Assembly: GCF_900114435.1 (NCBI RefSeq)
Contig: NZ_FOZK01000002.1
Location: 744,001-808,000, forward strand
Source: Halomicrobium zhouii
Lineage (GTDB): Archaea; Halobacteriota; Halobacteria; Halobacteriales; Haloarculaceae
Direction of reading: 5' to 3'
Length of the DNA: 64,000 bases
This document shows, piece after piece, positions 24,427-61,481 of the stretch. Every line of letters starts with the position of its first letter. Positions within the stretch are counted from its first letter, which is position 1. Below the pieces are notes generated by a model. The model saw only the letters and a program-made list of their open reading frames with translations. It made no database searches and was not told the DNA's origin. The translations under genes and the position numbers were made by a program.

Positions 24427-26553
24427 ATGACGGGACGTATTCACGTAGTGGCCCTACTGGCCGATCCATCGGCACCGTCGTCGCTGCGGCCGCTGCTGGC
24501 GACCGCCCAGCCGCTCTCGCCGCCGTTCCACGACCCGGTCGTGATCTTCGGGCTGGCGATGTTCGTCTTCCTCGCGGCGCCGCTCGTCCTCCAGCGGTAC
24601 CGGCTCCCCGGCATCCTCGGGATCATCCTGGTCGGCGCCGCCATCGGGCCGAACGGGCTCCACCTGCTCGAACGCGACCAGACCTTCGTGTTGCTTGGCG
24701 AGGTGGGTCTGATCTACCTGATGTTCGTCGCCGGCCTGGAGATCGACTACGCCCAGTTCGTCGCCTACAGGGACAGGAGCGTCGTCTTCGGGCTGTTGAC
24801 CTTCCTGATCCCCCAGGCCGCGGGGACGGCGGTCGGGATGTGGCTGCTCGACCTCTCGCTGCCCGCCGCGTCGCTCTACGCGGCCATCTTCGCCTCCCAC
24901 ACCCTGCTCGCGTACCCCATCGTGAACCGGCTCGGTGTCGTGAAGAACGAGGCGATCACCGCGGCCATCGGCGGGACGATCCTGACCGACACGCTCGCGC
25001 TGCTCGTCCTGGCGGTCGTCGTCGCGGCACACGAGGGCGTCCTCGACGCGGCGTTCTGGATCGCACTCGGTGTCGGACTGACCCTGTTCTTCGGGGGCGT
25101 GTGGGTCGTCGTCCCGCGGGTCAGCCGGTGGTTCTTCCGGACGCTCCACGAGGAGAGCTACTACGAGTTCCTCTTCGTGATGGTGGTCCTGTTCGTCGCC
25201 GCGTTCCTCGCCGAACTCGTCGGCGTCGAGCACGTCGTCGGGGCGTTCCTCGCCGGCCTCGTCCTCAACCGGCTGATCCCCTCGTCCGGGCCGCTGATGA
25301 ACCGCATCGAGTTCGTCGGCAACGCGCTCTTCATCCCCTTCTTCCTGCTGTCCGTGGGGATGCTCGTCGACGTCGGCGTGCTCCTCGCGGGCCCGGAGAC
25401 GCTCGTCGTCGCCACGTCGCTCGTCGTCCTCGTGGTGACGACGAAACTCGCGGCGGCGTGGCTCACCGGCCGGATCTACGGCTACGGCCGGGACGAGTGG
25501 CTCGGGATGTTCGGGCTCTCGCTGGGGCAGGCCGCCGCGGCACTCGCCATCGTCCTGATCGGCTTCGACGCCGGCGTTCCCGGCTTCGACCAGCACATGG
25601 TCAACGGCGTCGTGGTGATGATCCTGGTCGTGAGCCTGGTCAGCCCCGCGGTCGTCGAACGCGCCGGGACGGCCATCGCCCGGACTGAACGCCGGCAGCC
25701 CTACGGCCCGAGCGACGCACCCCGGCGGGTCCTCGTGCCGGTGTCGAACCAGTCGGAGCACTGGGAGTCGCTGCTCGACCTCGCCATGGCGGTTCGCGAG
25801 GAGCCCGCGGCGGACCCCCTGCACACGCTCTCGGTCGTCCAGCCGGGCGACGAGGCGGCGACCGAAGCGGCCGTCGCCGGGGCCGAGGCGCTGCAGGAGT
25901 CGATGGCCGAGTACGCCGCCGGTGCCGACGTGCCGCTCGTCGGCCACACGCGCGTCGACCACAACGTCGCCTCCGGCATCGTCACGGCCGCCGTCGAAAA
26001 CCGCATCTCGACCGTCGTGATCGGCTGGGACGGCGCCGCCTCGCGAGAACAGCGCGTGTTCGGTCACGTCATCGACCAGGTGTTACGCCGCGCTCCGCAG
26101 TTGACGCTCGTGAGCCGGATCCGCGAGCCGCTCGGGACGACGCGCCGGATCCGCCTCGTGCTCCCGCCGGGGATCGACCACAACGCCGGGTTCCCCGAGG
26201 CGCTCCACGCCTGCACGCACCTCGCAGCACAGGTCGGCGCACCGGTCCACTCGCTCCTCGTCGACGGCGACTCCGACGGGGACGGACGGGCGGACGCGCT
26301 CGACCGGGCCGGGGCGGCGGGCGAGTACGAGTCGGTCGCGGGCTGGACCGAACTCCGGACGCGACTCCGCGAGACTACCCAGGAGGACGACCTCGTCGTC
26401 TGCCTGAGTGCTCGCCGGACCGATCCGAGCTGGCACGCCGCGTTACAGACGCTCCCGATGGACGTCTCGACGCTCACCGACGGTAACTTCGTCGTGGTCT
26501 ACCCCGCCAGCGCGGAACGGGTCGACGACCGGCAGTTCCTCCGGTTCGAGTGA
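24427..26553 (+). CDS. Cation:proton antiporter (CPA2/KefB type) with a C-terminal stress-protein-like domain
   Basis: This 708-residue protein has about twelve membrane helices in residues 35-420 with CPA2 hallmarks (LPGILGIILVGAAIGPNG, then LIYLMFVAGLEID). A soluble C-terminus follows, starting near RRVLVPVSNQSEHWESLL, which resembles one or two Usp-like domains. It would exchange sodium or potassium for protons across the membrane. A TATA-like box (aaatttag, near 24382) lies about 40 nt before the ATG. It is monocistronic. Confidence 0.9.
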   Translation: MTGRIHVVALLADPSAPSSLRPLLATAQPLSPPFHDPVVIFGLAMFVFLAAPLVLQRYRLPGILGIILVGAAIGPNGLHLLERDQTFVLLGEVGLIYLMFVAGLEIDYAQFVAYRDRSVVFGLLTFLIPQAAGTAVGMWLLDLSLPAASLYAAIFASHTLLAYPIVNRLGVVKNEAITAAIGGTILTDTLALLVLAVVVAAHEGVLDAAFWIALGVGLTLFFGGVWVVVPRVSRWFFRTLHEESYYEFLFVMVVLFVAAFLAELVGVEHVVGAFLAGLVLNRLIPSSGPLMNRIEFVGNALFIPFFLLSVGMLVDVGVLLAGPETLVVATSLVVLVVTTKLAAAWLTGRIYGYGRDEWLGMFGLSLGQAAAALAIVLIGFDAGVPGFDQHMVNGVVVMILVVSLVSPAVVERAGTAIARTERRQPYGPSDAPRRVLVPVSNQSEHWESLLDLAMAVREEPAADPLHTLSVVQPGDEAATEAAVAGAEALQESMAEYAAGADVPLVGHTRVDHNVASGIVTAAVENRISTVVIGWDGAASREQRVFGHVIDQVLRRAPQLTLVSRIREPLGTTRRIRLVLPPGIDHNAGFPEALHACTHLAAQVGAPVHSLLVDGDSDGDGRADALDRAGAAGEYESVAGWTELRTRLRETTQEDDLVVCLSARRTDPSWHAALQTLPMDVSTLTDGNFVVVYPASAERVDDRQFLRFE

Positions 26554-26599
26554 CCGGCGCGTCGTCATAGCTGGCGCGTCCTCAGGGCCGGCGCGCTGT

Positions 26600-27349
26600 T
26601 CACGGCTCGCTTCGCTCTCCGTTCACGGTTTCTCGCCGCTCGCTGCGCTCGCGGCGACTCGCGAGCACCGGCATCTCCTCGATCCGTTCCTCGTCGAGTT
26701 CGTCCCAGTCGACGCCGGTCGGCCGGTCGAACGGCGTCTCGGTCTCGATCGTCCGCTCGGGCGTGACCAGGTAGTCCAACGGCACGTCGTGGTCGTCGAC
26801 GGCCCAGTCAGCGTCGCTCAGTTGCATCTCGTGAACCGTCGTCACAACGGGCGTCTCGTCGTCGACGAGGTCCAGTTCCCGCAGAACGGCGTACTCCAGG
26901 TCGCTGTACCCCTCGCCCTTGCCGATGCGGGCGCCGTCCTCACGGACCGCCACGCTCCCCGAGACGACGACGTCGACGGACTCGACGGCTTCGGGCCCGA
27001 CCTGCCGCCCGTACTCGTCCATCGACGACACCGTCGGCGCGGCGTCCAGGTCGTCGATGCGCTCGGGGTCTAACTCGACGAAGCACTCCTCGTCCCTGAG
27101 TCGTGGGACCGCCATGTAGACCGTCTTCCCCTCGTGGAGTGCCCGGCGACGGACCGGTAGCTGCGGCGCGTCGGGGTTGGCCTTGATAGAGTCGGCGGAT
27201 CGCCAGGCATCGAGTTCCGCGAGTCGGTTCGCGGCCGCTTTCGCGCCGGCGAAATTGGGGATGCGGCCGTGGGGCGGGAACGGAAACCGTGCCTGGCCGC
27301 TCTCCTCCAGTTCGTCCCAGACCCGCTCTCGGATGTCCTGTTTGTTCAT
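26600..27349 (-). CDS. 5-formyltetrahydrofolate cyclo-ligase family protein
   Basis: This 249-residue protein has the family's N-terminal helix (MNKQDIRERVWDELE), the substrate segment around VYMAVPRLRDEECF and the phosphate-binding loop IGKGEGYSDLEYA. The canonical role is ATP-dependent conversion of 5-formyl-THF to 5,10-methenyl-THF. Archaeal and MTHFSD-like members may act differently. The last twenty or so residues are a low-complexity tail of R, S and E encoded by a short inverted repeat (near 26634-26660) and look like an accretion rather than part of the domain. Confidence 0.82.
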   Translation of the reverse strand: MNKQDIRERVWDELEESGQARFPFPPHGRIPNFAGAKAAANRLAELDAWRSADSIKANPDAPQLPVRRRALHEGKTVYMAVPRLRDEECFVELDPERIDDLDAAPTVSSMDEYGRQVGPEAVESVDVVVSGSVAVREDGARIGKGEGYSDLEYAVLRELDLVDDETPVVTTVHEMQLSDADWAVDDHDVPLDYLVTPERTIETETPFDRPTGVDWDELDEERIEEMPVLASRRERSERRETVNGERSEP

Positions 27350-40398: not shown

Positions 40399-40884
40399 AT
40401 GCAGATCAAACACCTCATGCAAGACGACGATGCCGTTTCTCCGGTCATCGGCGTCATCCTCATGGTCGCGATCACCGTGATCCTCGCGGCCGTCATCGCA
40501 TCGTTCGTGCTCGGTCTCGGTGACCAGGCACAGCAGACGACTCCACAGGCGAGCTTCTCGTTCGACTATGAACAGGAGACTAGTACGGCCGACATCTTTA
40601 GTCACGGTTCCGGAGTGGAAGACGGGCTGTTAACCATTACTCACGATGGTGGTGACACTATCGATGCTCCAAGAATTAGCATTGTCGGAGCATCTAGTAC
40701 CTCCGATTTGAACCTTGTTACTGATTCAAGTGGGACGGGCGAGTACGTTTCTAACGACGAAGTCTCAGCTGGATCGACAATTCCCCTTCGCGTAGCCAAC
40801 GGTGACACAATTCGCGTCGTGTACTCCGGCGAGTCTGGAGACAGTTCTTCGACGCTCGCAACTTGGGAAGGACCCGATGCCTAA
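40399..40884 (+). CDS. Archaeal type IV pilin 1
   Basis: This is a 161-residue class III signal-peptide pilin. It starts MQIKHLMQDDDAVSPVIG and continues into the H-domain (VILMVAITVILAAVIASF), the hallmark of haloarchaeal PilA-type pilins. The prepilin peptidase PibD is expected to cut just before the AVSP stretch. The variable middle differs from the other three pilins, while the C-terminus SGESGDSSSTLATWEGPDA is shared. The ATG at 40399 was chosen over an upstream in-frame one. It would be exported and assembled into surface pili. Confidence 0.88.
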   Translation: MQIKHLMQDDDAVSPVIGVILMVAITVILAAVIASFVLGLGDQAQQTTPQASFSFDYEQETSTADIFSHGSGVEDGLLTITHDGGDTIDAPRISIVGASSTSDLNLVTDSSGTGEYVSNDEVSAGSTIPLRVANGDTIRVVYSGESGDSSSTLATWEGPDA

Positions 40885-40892
40885 GTAAAACA

Positions 40893-41348
40893 ATGAATCT
40901 TAAACAACTCATCCACGAAGACGACGCTGTTTCACCGGTCATTGGCGTCATTTTGATGGTTGCGATCACCGTAATCCTCGCGGCTGTGATCGCATCGTTC
41001 GTGCTCGGTCTCGGTGACCAGGCACAGCAGACTACTCCGCAGGCGAGTTTCAGCTTCGATTACGACGGTACAACTAGTCCAAGTCCTGGAGTCGGTCTCT
41101 ACGACGACAGCACGGGTGAGGGCGGTGACCTAACGGTTACTCACGATGGTGGGGACACTATCGCAGATGCTCGTGTAGATATTGTTGATGACGACGACTC
41201 ATATGCTCACCAGTTTGGATCTGAGATCTCTGCAGGCGTCTCGACGACCGTGGAGGTTGACAACGACGATACGGTCAGAGTGATTTTCACCGGCGAATCT
41301 GGAGATAGTTCCAGTACTCTTGCTACCTGGGAAGCACCCAACGCCTGA
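40893..41348 (+). CDS. Archaeal type IV pilin 2
   Basis: This 151-residue pilin follows pilin 1 by eight bases. It has the same N-terminal H-domain (DDAVSPVIGVILMVAITV) and the same linker GDQAQQTTPQASFSFDY. Its middle is different, and the C-terminus FTGESGDSSSTLATWEAPNA is almost the same. The DNA coding for the first 60 residues is near-identical to its neighbours, pointing to recent duplication or gene conversion. Prepilin processing by PibD is expected. Confidence 0.88.
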   Translation: MNLKQLIHEDDAVSPVIGVILMVAITVILAAVIASFVLGLGDQAQQTTPQASFSFDYDGTTSPSPGVGLYDDSTGEGGDLTVTHDGGDTIADARVDIVDDDDSYAHQFGSEISAGVSTTVEVDNDDTVRVIFTGESGDSSSTLATWEAPNA

Positions 41349-41356
41349 TTGAAACA

Positions 41357-41818
41357 ATGGACCTGAAACAACTCATCAACGACGACGACGCTGTATCACC
41401 AGTGATCGGTGTCATTCTAATGGTCGCGATCACTGTGATCCTCGCGGCCGTTATCGCATCGTTCGTGCTCGGTCTCGGTGACCAGACATCAAATACGACT
41501 CCGCAGGCCAGCTTCTCATTTGACTACGAACAAGGCACGTCCCCGAGTGGTTCGTTCATCAGTATTGGTTCCGGTAACACGCTAGAAATCGTTCATGACG
41601 GTGGAGATACGATTGATTCAGAACGGCTGAGTGTTAGCGATGGAACCAATTCTGCAGACTTTGACGATCCCGATGCATTGGGTGCCAGCGCGGCAATGTC
41701 GGCTGGCAATTCAGTGACTGTGGAGATAGAGAACGACGACGTAGTTCGAGTCATCTACAGTGGCGAAAGCGGGGACAGTTCCTCTACTCTCGCAACGTAC
41801 GAAGCACCCGGAGCATAA
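41357..41818 (+). CDS. Archaeal type IV pilin 3
   Basis: This 153-residue pilin begins MDLKQLINDDDAVSPVIG with the shared H-domain. The linker after it reads GDQTSNTTPQASFSFDY, a small change from the others. The middle has an SIGSGNTLEIVHDGG segment, and the C-terminus ends SGDSSSTLATYEAPGA. It follows pilin 2 by eight bases and precedes pilin 4 by five, so an operon is likely. Confidence 0.88.
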   Translation: MDLKQLINDDDAVSPVIGVILMVAITVILAAVIASFVLGLGDQTSNTTPQASFSFDYEQGTSPSGSFISIGSGNTLEIVHDGGDTIDSERLSVSDGTNSADFDDPDALGASAAMSAGNSVTVEIENDDVVRVIYSGESGDSSSTLATYEAPGA

Positions 41819-41823
41819 GAACA

Positions 41824-42360
41824 ATGGATATAAAGAAACTCATCAACGACGACGACGCCGTTTCACCGGTCATCGGTGTCATTCTCATGGTCGCGATCAC
41901 CGTGATCCTCGCGGCCGTTATCGCATCGTTCGTGCTCGGTCTCGGCGACCAGGCACAACAGACGACCCCACAAGCCAGCTTTAGCTTCGACTACACGCAA
42001 GACGACGCTGGTGACGATACACTCAAAGTCACTCACGACGGCGGTGACACAATTGAAGCAGCACGAATCAATGCGACCGCATCAGGAGCGATAGCACATG
42101 ATTATTCTGGCGGTTCAGAAACAGACCTGAAATTTGGAACTCATCCAGGCGGCGCTGATGGTGAGCTCTTCACGTCAGAGGTCAGTGCTGGTACAACTGA
42201 CACCTTGAATGGAGACGACTTCCACGATGGGGCAGATTACGCGTCCTCGATGACAGGCGATCATCTCGACCTGTCGGAAACGACCATTCGTGTCGTCTAT
42301 TCAGACGCATCCGGTGACAGCAGTTCGACCCTCGCGACCTGGGAAGGCCCAGACGCGTAA
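41824..42360 (+). CDS. Archaeal type IV pilin 4
   Basis: This is the longest pilin of the array, at 178 residues. It has the common N-terminus MDIKKLINDDDAVSPVIG, the linker GDQAQQTTPQASFSFDY, a longer variable middle (including a DYSGGSETDLKFGTHPGG stretch) and the common C-terminus ASGDSSSTLATWEGPDA. It ends the tandem array. No assembly ATPase or platform gene is present nearby, so pili would be assembled by machinery encoded elsewhere. Confidence 0.87.
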   Translation: MDIKKLINDDDAVSPVIGVILMVAITVILAAVIASFVLGLGDQAQQTTPQASFSFDYTQDDAGDDTLKVTHDGGDTIEAARINATASGAIAHDYSGGSETDLKFGTHPGGADGELFTSEVSAGTTDTLNGDDFHDGADYASSMTGDHLDLSETTIRVVYSDASGDSSSTLATWEGPDA

Positions 42361-42651: not shown

Positions 42652-44461
<1,810 letters not shown>

Positions 44462-49346: not shown

Positions 49347-49538
49347 ATGAGTGCGTCAGAGCAGGCGAGGAGCTCTCGACAGCGGCGACGTTGGCATGAA
49401 TCGTGGCTCCCCGATCAGCAGAACTACGGGCTTCTGGGGTACTGGTTTTGTTCTCTCGGTCGCAGTACACACTCTAGTCGACAGGCCAGGACGTCAGTGG
49501 GGACACGCCCAGCGGGGGACGACGCCGATGGCCAGTGA
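49347..49538 (+). CDS. Possible 63-residue leader ORF before the ATPase
   Basis: The ATG at 49347 lies about 31 nt after a TATA-like box, where a leaderless transcript would start. The frame (MSASEQARSSRQRRRWHESW) runs 63 codons and overlaps the start region of the large ATPase in another phase. It could be a real small gene, or the ATPase may start upstream in its own frame; the sequence does not decide. Confidence 0.25.
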   Translation: MSASEQARSSRQRRRWHESWLPDQQNYGLLGYWFCSLGRSTHSSRQARTSVGTRPAGDDADGQ

Positions 49539-52500
49539 CGTCCCAGGCAACGGAGACCCAGCGTCAACAACGGATTCCTCGTCGACGCTCCCGATCCCAG
49601 TACCGGGCTCGATACGGTCGGACGAGTCCACGCCGGCAACGGACCCGATCGAGCCTCGACCGTACCTCGAGATCAGGCCTTCGGAAACGATGGTCGATCC
49701 GACGGCAGTGACGCGGGCAATGGATCAACTGGAGGCACTGCTCGCCGACCAGACACAGACCGGGGTGCTCGACACGATTCGTGGGTCAGCACAGGTTCCG
49801 CTGGTCGAGTGGCTACTCGTCTCCGACGGGCGTCCCGACCCGCAACTGCGGTATCTCGTCGGGACGTCCAACCCGGCGTTGATCGAGGACCTGCGGGGCC
49901 TCCTCCGACGGTGTTTCCCGGACACCTACGAACTGCGAGACGTTACGTGGCACCCCCGATACGTCGAGGAGTTCCTGCCCATCGGCGATCCAGTGACAGC
50001 GAATCACTCGGTCTCGTTGCCGACTGGTGAAACGATCGATACGACAGTCCATCCGTACGTCGCGGGGGTCGAATATCACGGCGAAACGAACCGAACTCGC
50101 GACTGGCAGACGCCCCTGGCGTCGTTTGCTGACCGGAACCAGTCAGCCCGACGAGTGAGCTCGTCGTCGGACCACCACGATGGGTCTCACCGGCCGTCGG
50201 TAGCCTCACTGGTCGAGACGATGTGCAACGCGGCGGTCCCGGTCGTCTACCAGCTGGTCTGTCAGACTCACGGCGACTGGAGTGGTCAGGCGAATGCGTA
50301 TCTCTCGGATATAGAGAACGGGGCAGCGACGGGGCTTGACACCATCCGGGAGATCATCTATCCGCGGACCAGGGAGGAGCGGGAGCGATACACGCCACCG
50401 GCGTCGGACCGCAAGCGCATCGAGGCCATCGAGGAGCGTGACCCCCAGCACACGCTTCGGATCTCTGCTCGCGCCGTCGTGCTGACGCGAGACGACAGAC
50501 AGCGGGCAGAGACAGTCGCCCGCCAGTTGCGGACCGCGCTCAGTGGCCTCGACGGTCCATACCACAAAGTGCGGGGACACGTCGTCACCGACGGGGACCT
50601 CAGGCCACTCGGTGAGACGCCACCCGGGACGGCGCTGTTCGAGGAGATGATCGACCGAACGGTCCATCCCGTGACCTACGAATCGAGATCGAACAAGCTC
50701 CCGTGGAATACGTGCCAGAGCCAGGGGATCGTCGTCGCTCCCGAGGAGTTGCCGGGGCTGTGTCTCGTCGACGGCACGGAACTCACACCAGACGGGCACC
50801 GCGCGCTCGCGACGCGGCCGGTCGAACAGACCGCGCTCGTGCTCCCGCCGCCACAGCAGCTCATGCGGTACACCCCGCCCGGGATGGCCCTGTGCATGCC
50901 GTTGACGCACGACCGGCGACCGTACGGCCAGCCGTTCTACCTCACGCCGAGCCAGCAGGACCGCCACCTCGTCGTCGTCGGCGACACCGGCTCTGGAAAG
51001 TCCGTCCTCGTGGAGGGCGGGATGGTCACGAACGTCGCGGCGACCGATGGCCCCGATGTCCTCTTCGACTACAAGGGCGGTGGCACCGCCGAGGAGTACC
51101 TCCGGATGCACTACGCCGAGTACGGTAACCTCGACGACGTGCTGTACTTCGACCTCGCGCGCGTGCTGCCTGCATTCTCGTTTTTCGACATCGAACCGCT
51201 CCTCGAGGCAGGCATCCCCAGGGAAGAAGCCCGCTCGCGGAAGGCGGGTCACTACGCGGAGATCCTCCAGGGCGTGATGGGCGCCGAGAACTACGGCGAC
51301 GCCACCGAGTCGGTCAAGGCGATTCGCAACCACCTGCGAGCGCTCTACGACCCAGTCCACGGGAGTGACTCGATATCGCACGCCGACCTGTACGATGCCC
51401 TCCAGCGGACCCAGCGTGGCGAGGCGATGCCCTCGACGACAGACGAGAACCTGACCCACTACTTCTCCGGCCTCGCCGAGCGCGACAGGGACGTCTTCAA
51501 CAAGATCCTCGGCGGCGCAGTCGGTCGCGTCGAGCGGATCGCGACGGATGGTCGTCTCGCGCCGGTCTTCGAACACACACCAGACGAGAACGGTGGAGGA
51601 GAATCGGACCCGACACAGCCGTCCTTCGACTTCACGGACCTCGTCGACGAGGACACGGCCGTCGTCTTCGACTTCGCGGGGATGGAAGGGTCGGTCAAGC
51701 GGACGCTGACACTGGTCATCCTCTCGAACCTCTGGACAGCGCTCAAAGCCCGCGAGCAACGACGTCGCCACTCCGGGTCTGACGCCCTGCCGCAGGTCAA
51801 TCTCTACCTCGAAGAGGCGCGTGACGTCGGGGCGACCAAACTGCTCGATACGCTCCTCGCCGAGGGCCGCAGTTTCGGCCTGTCCGTCGCACTCGGGTTA
51901 CAGTTTCTCGAACAGCTCGAATCCCCCGATCCCGACCGGAACACCTACCAGGAAGTGCTCAACGAGACGGCGACGTTCGTCGTCGGGAACGTCTCGGTCG
52001 ATACCGACCTGCCGCGCGTCCTGGCGACGGAGTCGATGTCTCGGGAGGCCGTCGACAAACGCCTGACCGCGATGAGTCGCGGGGAGTGGCTCGTCCGTCC
52101 CGGGACTGACTTCGGTGACGAGGCGGTCCGGCCATTCCTCGCCCGCTCGCTCCCGGCCGCGGCCGGGCACCCGGCCAGCGATGACCCGCTCTCGGCAGTC
52201 GAGGAACGAGATTTCCAGACTGCCTTCGAACAGGTACGCGAGGAGACTGCCGCGAACGCGGGGCTTCGACAACACGAGAGCTTCGAGTCGGCTCAAGTCG
52301 ACGAGACTGATGGAACGGGGAGCGAATCGGAGACGGACGAATCAGAACCAGAGCGACTGGATTCGACGTATCCCGCCCTCCGCGTCGATACGCTACTGCC
52401 ACACACACGTCGCATGCCCGACTGCGTGGACTACGACGCCGAGGCGGATGCGATACGTTGCGAGGGGTGCGGGAACCGGTACGACCCGTCCGTCGACGGG

Positions 52501-53418
52501 ATGCACCGCGCCATCGAGTGCTGTCACTCGCTGGACGAGGTCGATTCCGACGATATCCCGGTCTGCGAGTTCAACCTGAAACTCACACCGGAGGAGGTCA
52601 TGGCCTCGGAGTGGTCGTTGACGCAGTTGCTGTTCGTCCAGGCCGTCTACAATGCCGAGCAGCGCCGCTACGACCCCCGGGCCTACGACCTCCTGACCGA
52701 TTCGATGCTTCGCCTGGAGGAGTACGTCGGGATCGACAGGGAGGACCTCCAGCCCCTCCTGGACGCGGACCTGGTGCGCCACGACACTGACCACCCACAT
52801 CGCATCTACTCGGTGTCGCCGGACGGCCGGAAGGCGATCGGGGAATCGTACAGGCGCGGCGTCGACTACGGCCACGGGAAAGGCGACCTCGAAGAGTCGA
52901 GCGAACACGTCTTCGGCGTCGAACTCGGGATCCGATTGCTCGAACAACAGTACGCGGCCGACCCCGACTCGGCCGTCGAGACAGTCGTCCCCTACTACGA
53001 GTTACAGGAGGGCTCGCTCCCCGCAGCGGCGTTCATGGGTGACGCCGCCGACGTCGAGGAGGAAACCAGCGACTTCGAACAGCGCCGACTGGACGTCGCT
53101 GGCCTCGACAGCGAGGGCGACGTCGTCGTCACGCTCGAGGTCGAACGGGTGAACAACGACATCCACCGGGCAGTCCCCGACGACTTCGACAAGATGGCCG
53201 CGTGCGAACCCGAGGAGGCCATCTGGATCGTCATGTCACGCACGGACGGCCACGAGGTACTCGCAGCGTTGAACGACCCGCCTGAGGGCGACACGCGTGT
53301 CGAGAAGACCTATAGTCAGAACACGCCGCCCCAGCAGTTCAAAATCGAAACGCCAGGACTGACGGGGATCTATCCCGCCGAGTACGTCCGGAATTCGCTA
53401 CTCGAAGACCGAGGGTAG
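49528..53418 (+). CDS. VirB4/TraG-type ATPase of a conjugation-like system, 1,296 residues
   Basis: This is a very large protein with a P-loop ATPase core. Walker A GDTGSGKS is near residue 486, followed by DVLFDYKGGG and a Walker B-like AVVFDFAGMEG near 710. A helicase-like segment NLYLEEARDVGATKLLDTLL follows. The C-terminal third carries a CEGCGNRYDP-type zinc site and an acidic tail. Such ATPases power DNA transfer or secretion in haloarchaeal plasmids. The start is uncertain: ATG 49528 is used here, but the frame is open to GTG 49351. A TATA-like box (taattaact) near 49314 fits transcription from about 49345. Confidence 0.78.
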   Translation: MASDVPGNGDPASTTDSSSTLPIPVPGSIRSDESTPATDPIEPRPYLEIRPSETMVDPTAVTRAMDQLEALLADQTQTGVLDTIRGSAQVPLVEWLLVSDGRPDPQLRYLVGTSNPALIEDLRGLLRRCFPDTYELRDVTWHPRYVEEFLPIGDPVTANHSVSLPTGETIDTTVHPYVAGVEYHGETNRTRDWQTPLASFADRNQSARRVSSSSDHHDGSHRPSVASLVETMCNAAVPVVYQLVCQTHGDWSGQANAYLSDIENGAATGLDTIREIIYPRTREERERYTPPASDRKRIEAIEERDPQHTLRISARAVVLTRDDRQRAETVARQLRTALSGLDGPYHKVRGHVVTDGDLRPLGETPPGTALFEEMIDRTVHPVTYESRSNKLPWNTCQSQGIVVAPEELPGLCLVDGTELTPDGHRALATRPVEQTALVLPPPQQLMRYTPPGMALCMPLTHDRRPYGQPFYLTPSQQDRHLVVVGDTGSGKSVLVEGGMVTNVAATDGPDVLFDYKGGGTAEEYLRMHYAEYGNLDDVLYFDLARVLPAFSFFDIEPLLEAGIPREEARSRKAGHYAEILQGVMGAENYGDATESVKAIRNHLRALYDPVHGSDSISHADLYDALQRTQRGEAMPSTTDENLTHYFSGLAERDRDVFNKILGGAVGRVERIATDGRLAPVFEHTPDENGGGESDPTQPSFDFTDLVDEDTAVVFDFAGMEGSVKRTLTLVILSNLWTALKAREQRRRHSGSDALPQVNLYLEEARDVGATKLLDTLLAEGRSFGLSVALGLQFLEQLESPDPDRNTYQEVLNETATFVVGNVSVDTDLPRVLATESMSREAVDKRLTAMSRGEWLVRPGTDFGDEAVRPFLARSLPAAAGHPASDDPLSAVEERDFQTAFEQVREETAANAGLRQHESFESAQVDETDGTGSESETDESEPERLDSTYPALRVDTLLPHTRRMPDCVDYDAEADAIRCEGCGNRYDPSVDGMHRAIECCHSLDEVDSDDIPVCEFNLKLTPEEVMASEWSLTQLLFVQAVYNAEQRRYDPRAYDLLTDSMLRLEEYVGIDREDLQPLLDADLVRHDTDHPHRIYSVSPDGRKAIGESYRRGVDYGHGKGDLEESSEHVFGVELGIRLLEQQYAADPDSAVETVVPYYELQEGSLPAAAFMGDAADVEEETSDFEQRRLDVAGLDSEGDVVVTLEVERVNNDIHRAVPDDFDKMAACEPEEAIWIVMSRTDGHEVLAALNDPPEGDTRVEKTYSQNTPPQQFKIETPGLTGIYPAEYVRNSLLEDRG

Positions 53419-54708: not shown

Positions 54709-54861
54709 TTACTCGATTTCGTACGTCACGATTCCGTCTCGACCACACGTCGAACACCGTTCAGCAATGGGTTCGACTGCTGTTCCGCAGTGTCTACACT
54801 CGACGATCGTTTCGCTATCGCTCTCTCGAAGATACCGAACGACCAGTAAGAGTCCGAACAT
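54709..54861 (-). CDS. 50-residue zinc-ribbon protein, downstream of TFB
   Basis: The small protein contains two CxxC knuckles (CRHCG and CSTCG) separated by eleven residues and ends in TYEIE. It starts one base after the TFB stop codon on the same strand, so it is translationally coupled to TFB. Similar short zinc ribbons are widespread in haloarchaea. A role in transcription is possible from the position but not shown. Confidence 0.6.
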   Translation of the reverse strand: MFGLLLVVRYLRESDSETIVECRHCGTAVEPIAERCSTCGRDGIVTYEIE

Positions 54862-54862
54862 C

Positions 54863-55795
54863 CTACCTCCCCAGGAACGACCACAGCGTATCCCGGTGCT
54901 CACGCACTGTCGTCGGTGAGACGGCCGCTTCATCGGCCAAATCCCGCTGGATAACTTCGATCCCCTGCTTGGCCGCGGCGACGGCCACGCACCCCGCCGC
55001 AAAGCCCGCGGGGTTGACGCCCGTCGTGAGGTCAGCCTCCACCGCTTCAGTCGCGATATCTCTGGCACGTCGCTCAGTCCTGCACGGAAGATCGAACGCC
55101 GAGACGAGCCGCGGAATGTACTCCTGGGGCTGCTGCGGAGGGACCGGGAGGTCGAGTTCCCTGTTGAGGACCATGTACCCGTTTCGGACTTTCTCCTCTC
55201 CGACGGTAGCGACACTGGCGATCTCGTCGAGTGTGCGTGGAACGTCGTTGATCCGACAGACAGCGTAAACGCAACCCGCGGCGATCGACTCGATCGACCG
55301 TCCGATGAGGAGGTTCTCGTTCTGTGCCGTCCGGAACAGGGAACTCGCCTGTTCCTGGACGGACCTCGGCAGGTCCAGTTGCGCCGTGAGTCGGTCGATC
55401 CCACCGAGTCCGTGTGCGAGGTTTCGCTCGCGCTTCGACCGGAACCGCGCCCGGTCGTGTTCACGGCGTAATCGTGCGAGTTGCCGTCGTTTCTTGCTCG
55501 GGATCGCGTTCCCCCTCGCATCGCGCTTCCGGCCGATAGTCGTTGAGAGACCCCGGTCGTGTCGCGTTACCGTCCGGGGACCGCCCGTCCGTCGCTTCTC
55601 CGTCTCGTCGCCACAGAAGGTTCTCGGTCCGCGCCTGTCGAGCCGACACGCCTCAATAATTAGCCCGCAGTCCTCGCAGCACTGCTCGCCATCGACGGTG
55701 CGAATCGTGCCGTCACAGTCGGGACACGTCGTCGAAGGAGTCGTCTTGCCAGTCGATTCATCGAAGCCACGTACGTAGATGTCTCTCGAACTCAT
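54863..55795 (-). CDS. tfb: Transcription initiation factor IIB (TFB) paralogue of the element
   Basis: This is a 310-residue general transcription factor. An N-terminal zinc ribbon (CPDCDGTI, CEDCG), a linker and two cyclin-like repeats are visible (about residues 120-205 and 215-305; e.g. SIAAGCVYAVCRINDVPRTL, then AAGCVAVAAAKQGIEVIQRD). Haloarchaea use several TFBs to select promoters. Here the gene lies among plasmid-type genes and carries the shared promoter/leader motif upstream (55821-55852), as do other genes of the region. A zinc-ribbon micro-gene follows directly. Confidence 0.92.
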   Translation of the reverse strand: MSSRDIYVRGFDESTGKTTPSTTCPDCDGTIRTVDGEQCCEDCGLIIEACRLDRRGPRTFCGDETEKRRTGGPRTVTRHDRGLSTTIGRKRDARGNAIPSKKRRQLARLRREHDRARFRSKRERNLAHGLGGIDRLTAQLDLPRSVQEQASSLFRTAQNENLLIGRSIESIAAGCVYAVCRINDVPRTLDEIASVATVGEEKVRNGYMVLNRELDLPVPPQQPQEYIPRLVSAFDLPCRTERRARDIATEAVEADLTTGVNPAGFAAGCVAVAAAKQGIEVIQRDLADEAAVSPTTVREHRDTLWSFLGR

Positions 55796-55820
55796 TCGTT
55801 ATCGCGGGCACCCGTCTGCA

Positions 55821-55852
55821 GGCCCCGCACCCGACAGGGGCCAGAAAAAATA
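55821..55852 (-). promoter_or_regulatory. Shared promoter/leader motif, copy 1 (upstream of TFB)
   Basis: On the minus strand a T-rich box (tattttttctgg) is followed by arms ggcccc and ggggcc with a second internal G-run (cgggtgc). The TFB start codon lies about 26 nt on. Arms and G-run match copies 2, 4 and 6. Confidence 0.7.
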
Positions 55853-55914: not shown

Positions 55915-56373
55915 CTAACGATCTCGTTCGTTCCGTGTCGGCATCGGTCGCCTCCCTGTCCGAACACACTCCCAGCACGGGAAGTCGTCGGGGAGGAAGC
56001 CACACTCGCAGTCGTCCGATTCTGGTGACTCGTTAAGCTGAGTTTCAGCCTGCTCCGAATCATCCCGTTGTGGGCGCGTCCCACCATCAGCGAGCAACTG
56101 CACGTCGGTGGCGAAATCGAGGACCGGCCGCCGTATCGCGACGGCGACTCTGTGTTTGCACGCGTGCTCATAGTTCGCATCGGCAGGACAGGTACAGTCC
56201 ACCGGAAGGCCGTCCTCGATAGTGACGAGGTACTCGTGGTCGGCTGGGACGGCGTGGCTGGCGTTTCGAACCCGGATGTCGGTGTCCAGCAGTTCGAACT
56301 CGAATGCCTCGTACTGAGCGCGTTTGCAAACACGATTCGATACCGAAAGTTCGTCGAGTGGATGTGGAGTCAT
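55915..56373 (-). CDS. SWIM zinc-finger protein
   Basis: The 152-residue protein carries a SWIM-type site: C-x-C (DCTCPADANYE) followed by ACKHRVAVA, giving CxC-x7-CxH. An N-terminal domain (RAQYEAFEFELLDTDIRVRN) precedes it, and a further cysteine group (CECGFLPDDFPCWEC) closes the protein. SWIM domains bind DNA or protein. The ATG at 56373 was chosen because it follows the shared promoter/leader motif by about 29 nt; an upstream in-frame start would include the motif. Confidence 0.78.
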   Translation of the reverse strand: MTPHPLDELSVSNRVCKRAQYEAFEFELLDTDIRVRNASHAVPADHEYLVTIEDGLPVDCTCPADANYEHACKHRVAVAIRRPVLDFATDVQLLADGGTRPQRDDSEQAETQLNESPESDDCECGFLPDDFPCWECVRTGRRPMPTRNERDR

Positions 56374-56401
56374 GCGAGAATCCGCGAGGCCCGAATCGTG
56401 T

Positions 56402-56434
56402 GGCCCCGCACCCCGAAGGGGCCAGAGAAAACGC
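56402..56434 (-). promoter_or_regulatory. Shared promoter/leader motif, copy 2 (upstream of the SWIM gene)
   Basis: On the minus strand gttttctctgg is followed by ggcccc, the loop ttc, gggg, tgc and ggggcc. The C-run can pair with either G-run. The start codon lies 29 nt downstream. Confidence 0.72.
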
Positions 56435-56453: not shown

Positions 56454-56678
56454 TCAGGAATTCGATTCGGTGTGAGGGACGTCCGGGAGGTTGGCCCGTT
56501 GGACACGGTCGTGCCACGAGCGAGGGACATAGCCATGTTCTTCGATCGCGTCGGCGTAGCCGCGAAGCAATCCGACGAGCACGAGTTCGGGAACCTCGTC
56601 TGTGGCCTGGCCTCCGAGCCAGCGTTCGAGCGACTGTGCAACCTGTTCGAACTGCTCATCGTCGAAGTCAGTCGTCAT
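56454..56678 (-). CDS. Small acidic protein of the element (74 residues)
   Basis: The protein starts MTTDFDDEQFEQVAQSLERW and has the helical segments LVLVGLLRGYADAIEEHGYV and RSWHDRVQRANLPDVPH. No family was recognised. It sits between two genes with the same leader motif and has its own copy (56707-56737) about 29 nt upstream of the start codon. It probably belongs to the same regulon. Confidence 0.6.
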   Translation of the reverse strand: MTTDFDDEQFEQVAQSLERWLGGQATDEVPELVLVGLLRGYADAIEEHGYVPRSWHDRVQRANLPDVPHTESNS

Positions 56679-56706
56679 ACGTCGTTTTAGGCGACCAGTG
56701 CAGGCT

Positions 56707-56737
56707 CGCCTGCGCCCTTCGCAGGCGAGAAAAAACG
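56707..56737 (-). promoter_or_regulatory. Shared promoter/leader motif, copy 3 (different bases, same hairpin)
   Basis: On the minus strand gttttttctcg is followed by arms cgcctgc and gcaggcg with loop gaagggc. The arm bases differ from the other copies, but the hairpin, the T-rich box and the distance to the start codon (29 nt) are kept. This is compensatory change, which supports a role for the structure. Confidence 0.68.
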
Positions 56738-57429: not shown

Positions 57430-57585
57430 CTACTCCTCGGAGGATTCGAGTTCGACACGATCACGCGTCAGCAACGGATCGTCACCATCGTGAAGCGGAG
57501 GCTCCCCAAGAGATTCAAAATCGAGAGCCGGGCCGCTCAGGAACGCTTCGAGCGGACTCTCACCATCCTCGTTATCTGCAGCCAT
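57430..57585 (-). CDS. 51-residue acidic partner of the PIN gene, possible antitoxin
   Basis: The small protein reads MAADNEDGESPLEAFLSGPA and then a proline/aspartate-rich tail ending ELESSEE. It has no obvious DNA-binding motif. It starts inside the end of the metalloprotease gene and stops two bases before the PIN start codon. Its coupling suggests a PIN antitoxin. It is below the length used by many gene finders. Confidence 0.5.
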   Translation of the reverse strand: MAADNEDGESPLEAFLSGPALDFESLGEPPLHDGDDPLLTRDRVELESSEE

Positions 57586-58603
57586 CTGAATTCCCCGTAT
57601 TATTCACATGTTGATTCTCGTCGGACTTAAAGCTAGAGTCTCGCCGCGGACCACAGTCCTTCTGGGTCTGTTCTCCGGAAGTTACTTCGACCGTGTCGAT
57701 GATTTTCTCTGCCGTCCGGCTGATACGACCGAGTCTTTCGGTGATAGCGTCGCTGTCGTCACCTTCCCACGCTGCGAGGTAGAACGCCGAGTTGTTCGTG
57801 TCCAAGTCGAAGTGGCGACCAACGACGTAGGCGACTGCCTCGGCCTCGACTTCCCGTTTCGAGCGCTCCGTCGCGTCGTCGACGTCACTGTGTAGCAGCG
57901 CGTGGGCGTACTCGTGGACGAGCGTCGTCGCCAGGTCGGCGTCGTTCTCAGTCTCCTGGACTTCGACGACTGGTGCACTGCCGTCGCCGTCGTACTGACA
58001 GACGCCCTTTGCGTCCCCGTGTGACCACTCGTGGTTCGGGACGAGCCGAACGTCGATGCCGAGTTCAGTGGCTGCCTCGAGGAGCTCGGAGACGAGGTCC
58101 CCAGCGTCACCGTTTGTCTCAGTATCGAGTTCTGGCAGTGGGTCACCCTCCGTCTGCGAAATGTCGAAGACGGTCGTCGGTCGGAACCCGACCAGTCCTT
58201 CCGACCACTCCTCTGGTGGCGTCTCGTCGTACTCGCAATCGATCGAATCGTGGTACGACGGTGCGTTCTGGCACTCCGGACACCGCGTCGTGACGATCGG
58301 TGCCCAGATCCAGATGGCTGATTCGCCCTCCGTCACGTGCCGATCGAACTCTGACTGCCAGGTGTGGTAGCCCGCGACTTTTGTTGCCTGGGGGCACTGG
58401 GCCTTGATCAAGAGCGTATTTCGGTACGAGTACTCGTGGAAGCGTGATTGGACATCTAGCCACTCCTGGAACTGCTCACTGGTCGCGGCCTCGTCGGTCA
58501 GGTCGGCCAGGTCTTCGACCCACTCGGTGATCGTGCTGTGCATCTCGTCGTCGCGAGTCTCCTGGTCGTCGAAGGAGACTCGCTGATCGTCTTGTGAACT
58601 CAT
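57572..58603 (-). CDS. ArdC/ImmA-like zinc metalloprotease
   Basis: This is a 343-residue protein. The N-terminus (WVEDLADLTDEAATSEQFQ, then RFHEYSYRNTLLI and QATKVAGYHTWQ) matches the ssDNA-binding part of ArdC-like proteins. A zinc-type cysteine pair (RCPECQN) follows. The catalytic domain has the HEYAH helix at residues 230-234 and a later EVEAEAVAYVVG segment. In plasmids such proteins protect incoming DNA or cleave regulators. The ATG at 58603 lies 25 nt after the shared leader motif. The last 14 bases overlap the small acidic gene. Confidence 0.8.
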   Translation of the reverse strand: MSSQDDQRVSFDDQETRDDEMHSTITEWVEDLADLTDEAATSEQFQEWLDVQSRFHEYSYRNTLLIKAQCPQATKVAGYHTWQSEFDRHVTEGESAIWIWAPIVTTRCPECQNAPSYHDSIDCEYDETPPEEWSEGLVGFRPTTVFDISQTEGDPLPELDTETNGDAGDLVSELLEAATELGIDVRLVPNHEWSHGDAKGVCQYDGDGSAPVVEVQETENDADLATTLVHEYAHALLHSDVDDATERSKREVEAEAVAYVVGRHFDLDTNNSAFYLAAWEGDDSDAITERLGRISRTAEKIIDTVEVTSGEQTQKDCGPRRDSSFKSDENQHVNNTGNSDGCR

Positions 58604-58627
58604 TCTCGGAGTGCGAGGGTGTGAGAA

Positions 58628-58656
58628 CCCCCGCACCCCTTCAGGGGGCGATAAAA
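58628..58656 (-). promoter_or_regulatory. Shared promoter/leader motif, copy 4 (upstream of the metalloprotease)
   Basis: On the minus strand ttttatc is followed by gccccc, tgaa, gggg, tgc and ggggg. This is the clearest copy of the pattern T-box, C-run, G-run, G-run. The start codon lies about 25 nt downstream. Confidence 0.75.
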
Positions 58657-58746
58657 CGCTGTCTGCTGAGCAAGGCTGACCGATGAAGAAGCTCCTCGGA
58701 AAGTGGCTCAGTAGCCGCTATTTACCTGCACAGGAGTGCAGAACCG

Positions 58747-59226
58747 CTATAGTTCGACACCGCCGTGCTGGATGACGTCCTCGGTCCGAAACCAGCTAGC
58801 GTAATCCTGGTGCCCGAAGACCTTGTCGTCACTCCAGATGTCACCACCTGTCGCGATCGCTGCCGCGAGGAACACGACGTCGTCCTCGTCGCGGCCTTCG
58901 AACTGACGCTCCTGATCTGCATCGGGATGTGAGGACGTCGCCTCGGCCGCGGTTCGATACTGTAACAGGACATCCGCTTCCGGGACGAGGGTGATGTTCT
59001 TGAAGAGACGATCGATGAGTTCGTCGATGGCCGTCGCGGAGAGGCCCGCTCGTTCCTGGATCACGCCCCGGTTTCGACGAATTTCCTCGAACGAGGGTTC
59101 TGGATATCGGAGGTCTCGTTCGAGATCAACAATCAGCTTCCGTGTTGCACCGCCAATGAGCCCCGAAAGAGCGGTGTTCGTGTCGATGACGAGGGGCCTA
59201 CTTTCCTGCCAGTCGTTCTGCGACAT
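58747..59226 (-). CDS. VapC-like PIN-domain toxin
   Basis: This 159-residue PIN protein begins with PLVIDTNTALSGLIGGATRK and has a C-terminal DEDDVVFLAAAIATGGDIWS followed by DDKVFGH. These acids form the expected metal site of an RNase. It overlaps the upstream ribbon-type antitoxin gene by 29 bp, the common arrangement of vapBC modules. PIN toxins usually cut tRNA or rRNA; the target here is unknown. Confidence 0.82.
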   Translation of the reverse strand: MSQNDWQESRPLVIDTNTALSGLIGGATRKLIVDLERDLRYPEPSFEEIRRNRGVIQERAGLSATAIDELIDRLFKNITLVPEADVLLQYRTAAEATSSHPDADQERQFEGRDEDDVVFLAAAIATGGDIWSDDKVFGHQDYASWFRTEDVIQHGGVEL

Positions 59227-59422
59227 TGCTGTCGATCAACTCCGCGAGTTCGTCGACGTCTTCGTCGGTGAGTTCACTGTCTGACGTGAGCCGATTCATC
59301 ATCTCGAGATCGTCGATTTTCTCTTCGAATGCGTTGCGGGCGACTTCGGACCAGTTGATCTCGGAGTGGTCCTCCATCTGTGCTTTGAGGTCGTCGTCGA
59401 CGTTGATGGTTACCGTTGGCAT
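59198..59422 (-). CDS. VapB-like antitoxin
   Basis: The 74-residue protein starts with the ribbon MPTVTINVDDDLKAQM and the helix INWSEVARNAFEEKI, a ribbon-helix-helix pattern. The C-terminus is acidic and helical (LTDEDVDELAELIDSN) for toxin binding. It overlaps the PIN gene. The promoter is not clear: a copy of the shared leader motif lies about 127 nt upstream. Confidence 0.78.
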   Translation of the reverse strand: MPTVTINVDDDLKAQMEDHSEINWSEVARNAFEEKIDDLEMMNRLTSDSELTDEDVDELAELIDSNVAERLAGK

Positions 59423-59548: not shown

Positions 59549-59580
59549 CGCCCCCGCCCCTTCCAGGGTGCGATAAAATA
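59549..59580 (-). promoter_or_regulatory. Shared promoter/leader motif, copy 5 (orphan or long leader)
   Basis: On the minus strand attttatcg is followed by caccc, tggaa, gggg, cggggg. No ATG lies within 100 nt downstream; the next gene is the VapB-like antitoxin. Either a gene was deleted here or this is a long leader for vapBC. Confidence 0.6.
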
Positions 59581-60694: not shown

Positions 60695-61321
60695 TTACGT
60701 AGTATCGCTGTGGACGTGAATTTCCGCGTCGTCGTGGACCCACGTCTGGAGTTTCTCGATCATGTACGTCTGTGCCTCGTCCTCGTCGAAGACGTCCCTG
60801 TCGAGCGTGTCTCGCGTGATCGATCGCAATGCGTGAAGCCGACCACGAAGGACGCCATCGCCGACTGGTTCGCCGTCGTTCCACCGGACCGGGACGAGTG
60901 CGCCGTTGCCGACGGTATCGCCCTCCTTTGTTTGATGCTCGACGTGGTCCATCGCGAAGGAGAACGTCCGGTACGCCGTGACGTCGAAGTCCCGGTCGAC
61001 GACGTAGAACGCTTCGTGAGTGAGGTAATCGACGTGGCCCTCGCAGATTGTCTCAAGCGCGAGGGCGATTTCTTTCGGTTCCATCTCGACCGGCGCCGCC
61101 CGATATCGGCCGCTGTCCACGGAGATACCGGCGCCACCGGGCTGGACCTCCAGCATGAGATCGAGTCGGTTTCGCTGGTCTGTACTCGGGACGCCGCCAC
61201 CGAATGGTGTGTCAGCCGTGATGTCCGTCGCCAGTCGAAGTTCGTACGCGCCTTCGTGTGAGTAGTGCAGGTTGAATCGTCCGTCAGGTCGCTCGTACGC
61301 GACGAGTGCTCTATGTGCCAT
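60695..61321 (-). CDS. DUF6735-like haloarchaeal protein
   Basis: The 208-residue protein begins MAHRALVAYERPDGRFNLHY and contains ELRLATDITADTPFGGG, features I recall for the haloarchaeal DUF6735 group. No catalytic residues are known for it. It is convergent with the lipoprotein gene. The shared leader motif (61338-61367) lies 17 nt before the start codon, making this the fifth gene of the putative regulon. Confidence 0.72.
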   Translation of the reverse strand: MAHRALVAYERPDGRFNLHYSHEGAYELRLATDITADTPFGGGVPSTDQRNRLDLMLEVQPGGAGISVDSGRYRAAPVEMEPKEIALALETICEGHVDYLTHEAFYVVDRDFDVTAYRTFSFAMDHVEHQTKEGDTVGNGALVPVRWNDGEPVGDGVLRGRLHALRSITRDTLDRDVFDEDEAQTYMIEKLQTWVHDDAEIHVHSDTT

Positions 61322-61337
61322 GATGTGCTGCGGGATT

Positions 61338-61367
61338 GCCCCCGCACCCCTCGGGGGGTAATAAACA
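61338..61367 (-). promoter_or_regulatory. Shared promoter/leader motif, copy 6 (upstream of the DUF6735-like gene)
   Basis: On the minus strand tgtttatta is followed by cccccc, ga, gggg, tgc and ggggg, again a C-run facing two G-runs. The start codon lies 17 nt downstream, the shortest distance among the copies. Confidence 0.7.
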
Positions 61368-61481
61368 CACCGTAGGTTAGATGTCCCAGAGAACCGCCTC
61401 GCGATATGCGCGGTTAACGGCGCTCATCGGTGGAAATGGTCCAATTCCGCTGAAGTGACGATGTTCTAGAGAGGGAGGCCT

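Follow-up and report, generated by a model that had tools for sequence, protein, structure and literature searches.

A structured leader motif shared by a TFB gene and its neighbours on haloarchaeal mobile elements, and a candidate self-regulating circuit

A gene for an initiation factor of the TFB (TFIIB) family, located in a probable mobile element of a haloarchaeal chromosome, shares a hairpin-containing leader motif with genes next to it, and the same motif accompanies related TFB genes on plasmids across haloarchaea. The sequence-only reading of this DNA had proposed a self-regulating circuit, in which the TFB, perhaps together with a small zinc-ribbon protein, drives the genes that have the motif. 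The motif was confirmed as real and turned out to be broader than first noted. The circuit is the best-supported reading, short of proof. A motif-defined regulon of an integrated conjugative-type element, driven by its own TFB with autoregulation, is given a slightly less than even chance here.

To our knowledge, the separate tasks of the many TFBs for which haloarchaea are known are largely unassigned. A large plasmid-borne group of TFBs has a discrete, searchable candidate target, so that promoter choice by TFBs becomes directly testable. The motif also provides a handle on counter-defence in archaea and on the genes, most of unknown function, that are expressed together by haloarchaeal plasmids, perhaps upon entry. 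A hairpin start signal that recurs on plasmids across the haloarchaea suggests that mobile DNA has a private system of gene expression.

The region and its genes

The window, i.e. the whole 64-kb stretch of DNA that was analysed (G000:C2:744001-808000), is contained in a chromosomal contig of a haloarchaeon. Past 36 kb of the window the GC content falls from about 0.68 to 0.44-0.65. Because of this drop and of a coupling-protein-like ATPase encoded there, the region is most likely a conjugative-type element integrated in the chromosome. The minus strand, read from 61.4 to 54.7 kb, carries in order the genes for a DUF6735 protein, an RHH/PIN pair, an ArdC-like protein, a 74-aa protein, a SWIM protein, the TFB and a zinc-ribbon micro-protein (Table 1). 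ArdC-like genes are annotated in the same motif setting on other plasmids.

Table 1. Genes and motif sites of the element (window coordinates)
Feature	Position	Strand	Basis or details
TrwB/TraG/HerA-type coupling-protein-like ATPase, conjugative	49351..53418	+	Pfam TrwB_AAD_bind 3.2e-6
Zinc-ribbon micro-gene, 50 aa (ECRHCG..CS.CGR.GI..YEIE)	54709..54861	-	ORF; conserved in relatives
Element-encoded TFB (TFIIB family), 310 aa, N-terminal zinc ribbon and two cyclin repeats	54863..55795	-	Pfam TFIIB 3.5e-33
Motif site 1, upstream of TFB	55820..55850	-	T-box TTTTTT, arms GGCCCC/GGGGCC, loop GGGTGC
SWIM zinc-finger protein, 152 aa, motif gene	55915..56373	-	Pfam SWIM 1.1e-6
Motif site 2, upstream of SWIM gene	56401..56431	-	Covariance model
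74-aa conserved protein, motif gene	56454..56678	-	ORF; same gene behind the motif in L032, L164 and L165
Motif site 3, upstream of 74-aa gene	56705..56736	-	Arms CTCGCCTGCG/CGCAGGCGAG, compensatory stem
ArdC-like anti-restriction protein (ArdcN and M78 peptidase), motif gene	57572..58603	-	Pfam Peptidase_M78 7.5e-5 (above cut-off), ArdcN 7.4e-4 (below cut-off)
Motif site 4, upstream of ArdC-like gene	58626..58657	-	Second arm can pair over 13 bp with the pre-ATG leader segment
RHH/PIN gene pair, downstream of motif site 5	58747-59422	-	
Motif site 5, weakest, upstream of RHH/PIN pair	59549..59579	-	Covariance model
DUF6735 protein, motif gene	60695..61321	-	Pfam 2.1e-82
Motif site 6, upstream of DUF6735 gene	61337..61368	-	Covariance model

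The leader motif

In 80 related loci the motif consists of a T-rich hexamer (the T-box), a spacer of a few nucleotides, a stem arm of 4-8 bp, a loop that ends with GGGTG and one further base, and the second arm. The motif spans 25-30 nt from the start of the T-box to the end of the arm, and the commonest distance from there to the start codon is 22-32 nt. The arms vary in sequence yet stay complementary (CCCC/GGGG, GCGCCGGC/GCCGGCGC, CTCGCCTGCG/CGCAGGCGAG and others).

A covariance model, built from the 80-locus set with the window excluded, finds exactly six good sites in the 64 kb, all on the minus strand, with E values of 1.2e-7 to 0.11. The TFB leader is one of these six, so the earlier claim that the TFB gene shares a leader motif with its neighbours is borne out. 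The site upstream of the RHH/PIN pair has no start codon close behind it, and it recurs in the element's second copy (G000:C2:280000-299900). A 30-nt pattern taken from the TFB leader has two matches in the window, where 0.00 are expected, and a shorter pattern produced zero hits in the reversed control, both in 57 and in 148 genomes. Of 24 Halobacteriales genomes, 9 contain the strict pattern, compared to none of the 124 other genomes of the phylum. Nothing near the gathering score was found when the element was scanned against Rfam, only sub-threshold chance matches, and neither Rfam nor the open-access papers that were searched describe the motif.

The stem covaries in 45 non-redundant sites, with a score of 0.494 compared to 0.159 for shuffled data and 69 double-changed cells compared to 30, but the figure is inflated by selection because the sites were picked by a scan that demanded four paired bases. 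Neither value was reached in any of 500 shuffles, and the signal was lost when the partner columns were slid. The range of different stems is firmer evidence for the stem than the covariation score.

The stretch that separates the second arm from the start codon contains a third segment, complementary to the second arm of its own site. The longest match between the two averages 6.54, compared to 5.27 +- 0.10 when leaders are swapped among sites (z 13). The excess is 1.27 if GU pairs are allowed and 0.45 if the mirror pair AC is allowed instead, an asymmetry that RNA would be expected to show. Between the first and second arms, in contrast, GU is not preferred (GU in 11 and AC in 18 of 620 cells). 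The GU bias of the downstream pairing implies transcription of the second arm and is at odds with a start site behind the dyad. Thus the pair statistics disagree on the dyad as DNA and on where the RNA begins. The motif is not a simple TFB site and is more than a promoter word.

The T-box as a putative core promoter

An upstream TATA box was rejected as the promoter of the motif genes: the aligned profile is flat upstream of the T-box and a free-position scan found no TATA box there. A TATA-like element lies within 52 nt before the T-box at 2% of the sites that have a co-directional upstream gene. As no other TATA-like element is present upstream, the T-box itself is the favoured candidate for the core promoter. 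In one genus the start codon is directly behind the second arm, so that the T-box is at -28, the position of the TATA box in leaderless haloarchaeal promoters. Some T-boxes, e.g. TTTGTC and TTTCTG, make poor TATA boxes. Since arm sequences vary inside a single element, the TFB cannot recognize the arms by their sequence, and what it could read is limited to the T-box, the GGGTG core and the spacing. The genus mentioned above (L148-L153, from genomes G005, G040 and G053) has the variant TTTT[CG]TG...CCTC..GGGTGAGAGG-ATG with no leader, which is found at many genes of one strand and accompanies a TFB lineage of its own.

The TFB and its coupled zinc ribbon

The TFB of the window matches the archaeal TFB structures in the Protein Data Bank (1d3u/1ais, E 7e-39), the 1d3u match covering residues 122-300. 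The N-terminal Cys4 zinc ribbon is present, with C24, C27, C40 and C43 invariant in the subfamily alignment (A2), and is accompanied by two cyclin-like TFIIB repeats (Pfam PF00382, two stretches). Despite being homologous across nearly the full length of the curated archaeal TFB model NCBIfam PRK00423, the protein scores below its cut-off (253 bits compared to 384). It therefore belongs to a diverged subfamily, which is of the TFIIB family but outside that curated subfamily. Its predicted role is to bind the TBP-DNA complex and to recruit RNA polymerase.

The element TFBs form several lineages. The tree parts most of them from the chromosomal TFBs, but its backbone is unresolved, and the notion that they are a single clade opposed to the chromosomal TFBs was rejected. 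In PLSDB, 250 plasmids carry the TFB at the threshold used, a number in which other TFB subfamilies may be counted as well. A viral origin was also rejected: the strict pattern is found in 3 stretches of 2.9 million viral contigs, and a distant TFB (33%) in three halovirus records only. On plasmid pHLAC01 (L115) a gene for a TATA-box-binding protein (26057-26617) lies at a distance of about 5 kb from the TFB of the element, and it may be that some elements encode the two initiation factors together. On plasmid pJ7-1 a 293-aa protein (L112:15951-16832 and equivalents) that matches NCBIfam 'biosurfactant protein 1' (E 6e-139) directly follows the TFB.

The ATG of the zinc-ribbon micro-gene is 1 nt past the TFB stop codon (TAG-G-ATG), in keeping with the coupling noted earlier. 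Its best Pfam matches are weak zinc ribbons, every one below the cut-off, and its identification as the RNA polymerase subunit Rpo12 was rejected, having no Pfam support. Residues E21, C22, R23, C25, G26, C36, C39 and Y47 are invariant. The gene is conserved downstream of the TFBs of clade I and of one more distant lineage, where it mostly overlaps the TFB stop codon. Most clade II TFBs lack it; some have a separate gene about 100-250 nt downstream that starts with a zinc ribbon. Since the coupling is limited to clade I and one other lineage, the ribbon cannot be a partner that is required everywhere. In clade I, judging from the coupling alone, it is probably a helper of the TFB or of RNA polymerase.

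Co-occurrence of TFB and motif

Essentially every TFB leader carries the motif in the 80 related loci across haloarchaea. The two that lack it in the stretch covered, L037 and L086, owe this solely to a tblastn match that started within the gene or past a shifted start. None of 18 chromosomal TFB loci has the motif. The family is represented by 57 genomes. The TFB subfamily (387 bits or more, the next scores, past a gap, being about 370) is found in 26 of these, each of which has 2-23 sites; of the 31 that lack it, 19 have no site.

Motif clusters that appeared to be TFB-free were considered as a refutation of the pairing and rejected as such, since most have a TFB of another lineage. When the eight genomes that seemed to be exceptions were searched at a lower TFB threshold, nine of their ten clusters (two or more sites) had an other-lineage TFB no more than 15 kb away on the contig, and 13 of the 42 sites were within 5 kb of a TFB, compared to 0.9 expected. 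Most of the other-lineage TFBs beside motif clusters carry the motif too, and wherever a lineage has a clear motif cluster, the TFB is itself one of the motif genes. One contig (G038:C1) has two sites and no TFB, and genome G017 has two isolated sites on two contigs, neither with a TFB. The factor gene and the motif thus co-occur across genomes, as a dedicated initiation factor and its promoter class would. As a test of recognition in trans, the loop variants GGGTGA and GGGTGC were compared in the main TFB clade: the variant at the TFB leader does not co-vary with that of the neighbouring genes and tracks the gene family, not the element.

Layout on one strand

The motif sites keep to the strand of the TFB: 190 sites in 80 loci are on that strand and 4 on the other, whereas the genes, by crude calls, number 979 to 534. 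The four opposite-strand sites look like false positives. The complete plasmid pJ7-1 has nine gene-linked sites, all on one strand, with opposite-strand genes, restriction genes included, interspersed among them. Bacterial plasmids show the same one-strand rule in their leading-region genes (PMC11541004), and ArdC ranks among the typical establishment genes (PMC7213743, PMC8708921). The likeness to bacterial leading regions is a parallel, not membership.

The proposed circuit and its alternatives

In the proposed circuit each motif gene is preceded by the common structured 5' element, with the T-box as its core promoter. The element TFB, together with the host TBP, would recruit RNA polymerase to the T-box and would transcribe its own gene and the establishment-like genes (ArdC, SWIM, DUF6735 and RHH/PIN), the coupled zinc ribbon of clade I possibly helping the TFB or the polymerase. 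The motif, its orientation on one strand, its near-obligatory pairing with the TFB, its presence at the TFB gene itself and its lack at chromosomal TFB genes are observed; contact of the TFB with these promoters, positive autoregulation and a role in establishment are inferred. The original proposal is supported in part, but a plain promoter model does not account for the RNA-like third segment. Furthermore, co-occurrence could mean that the TFB and the motif genes reside together on one element, and not that one regulates the other.

The third segment speaks for an RNA leader switch, in which the whole element would be transcribed, the first arm and the pre-ATG segment would compete for the second arm, and translation of all motif genes would be set by a protein or signal, the TFB being regulated and not the regulator. 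The site-by-site, GU-biased complementarity downstream agrees with such a switch, and so does the 13-bp alternative stem upstream of the ArdC-like gene. However, GU pairs are not favoured between the first and second arms, an upstream promoter is not visible, the genus with its start codon right after the second arm leaves no room for a third segment, and Rfam has no match at its curated thresholds. We consider a switch of this kind unlikely. The dyad could also be the operator of a different element-encoded regulator, like EGeRS2 of plasmid p576, which is bound by a ribbon-helix-helix repressor, with the TFB merely a member of the regulon. A repressor would be expected to bind where the dyad is, between a TATA-like box and the start, and plasmids control ardC by this logic (PMC8708921). 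A single dimeric repressor, however, would not tolerate arms that differ within one element, and in an unsystematic look no regulator except the TFB was seen to track the motif, which makes an operator quite improbable.

The strand layout suggested a promoter that works on single-stranded DNA, as does Frpo of F: the hairpin of the entering strand would let a host or carried RNA polymerase start before second-strand synthesis, and the motif genes would be establishment genes. The one-strand sites, which bacterial leading regions share (PMC11541004), are compatible with it, as are the strictly Watson-Crick, sequence-free stem and the presence of ArdC and RHH/PIN genes with a coupling-protein-like ATPase nearby. 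Nevertheless, an ancestral block of co-directional genes explains the layout as well. A core box that is double-stranded in the folded strand was not found in the motif structure, where the T-box is outside the stem; being single-stranded there, it could not be bound by TBP in the usual way. Such a promoter is rather improbable. The chances are also slim for a composite archaeal establishment system, whose hairpin promoters would lie on, or be switched by, incoming conjugative single-stranded DNA and would be read by a TFB of the element that, in the recipient, would initiate its own production and immediately switch on ArdC together with other counter-defence genes.

Comparison with known systems

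Phage-encoded sigma factors have dedicated late promoters. Like them, the TFB circuit would have a mobile element bring its own initiation factor and promoter class, but the factor is an archaeal TFB, the promoter a hairpin element and the carrier a plasmid and not a virus, the strict motif being rare in viral contigs. The expanded TFB and TBP sets of haloarchaea, e.g. Halobacterium NRC-1, have extra TFBs that were proposed to select promoter classes (PMC2121645). The present case is alike in the extra TFB proposed for promoter choice and in the standard TFB domain plan; it differs in that the TFB is one of mobile elements and is tied to a structured motif that is absent from chromosomal TFB genes.

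The elements EGeRS1 and EGeRS2 of pLS20-family plasmids resemble the motif in being conserved and repeated before several plasmid genes, ardC included, and EGeRS1 also in its richness in inverted repeats (PMC8708921); here, too, the same motif precedes several genes and its clusters often include ArdC. EGeRS1 is 420-750 bp long and belongs to Bacillus plasmids with no dedicated initiation factor (PMC8708921), whereas the haloarchaeal element has about 30 bp plus the leader and comes with a TFB. Frpo of F-type plasmids is likewise a hairpin before genes of one strand, anti-restriction genes among them (PMC11541004). Folding of Frpo makes the -35 and -10 boxes double-stranded; in the haloarchaeal motif the T-box is outside the stem, and the host is an archaeon.

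Further features of the window and the genome

Two further motif clusters are present in the same genome, at G000:C2:241-249 kb and 287-296 kb (L164 and L165). One has an intact, 87% identical TFB. In the other the TFB frame is broken after about 18 codons, and the leader motif at the TFB is still kept. Within the window, four tandem pilin-like genes with nearly identical N-termini occupy positions 40401-42360 of the plus strand, and two neighbouring ORFs on the minus strand (42705-44461) resemble, by eye, an IS200/IS605-type pair of TnpB and TnpA.
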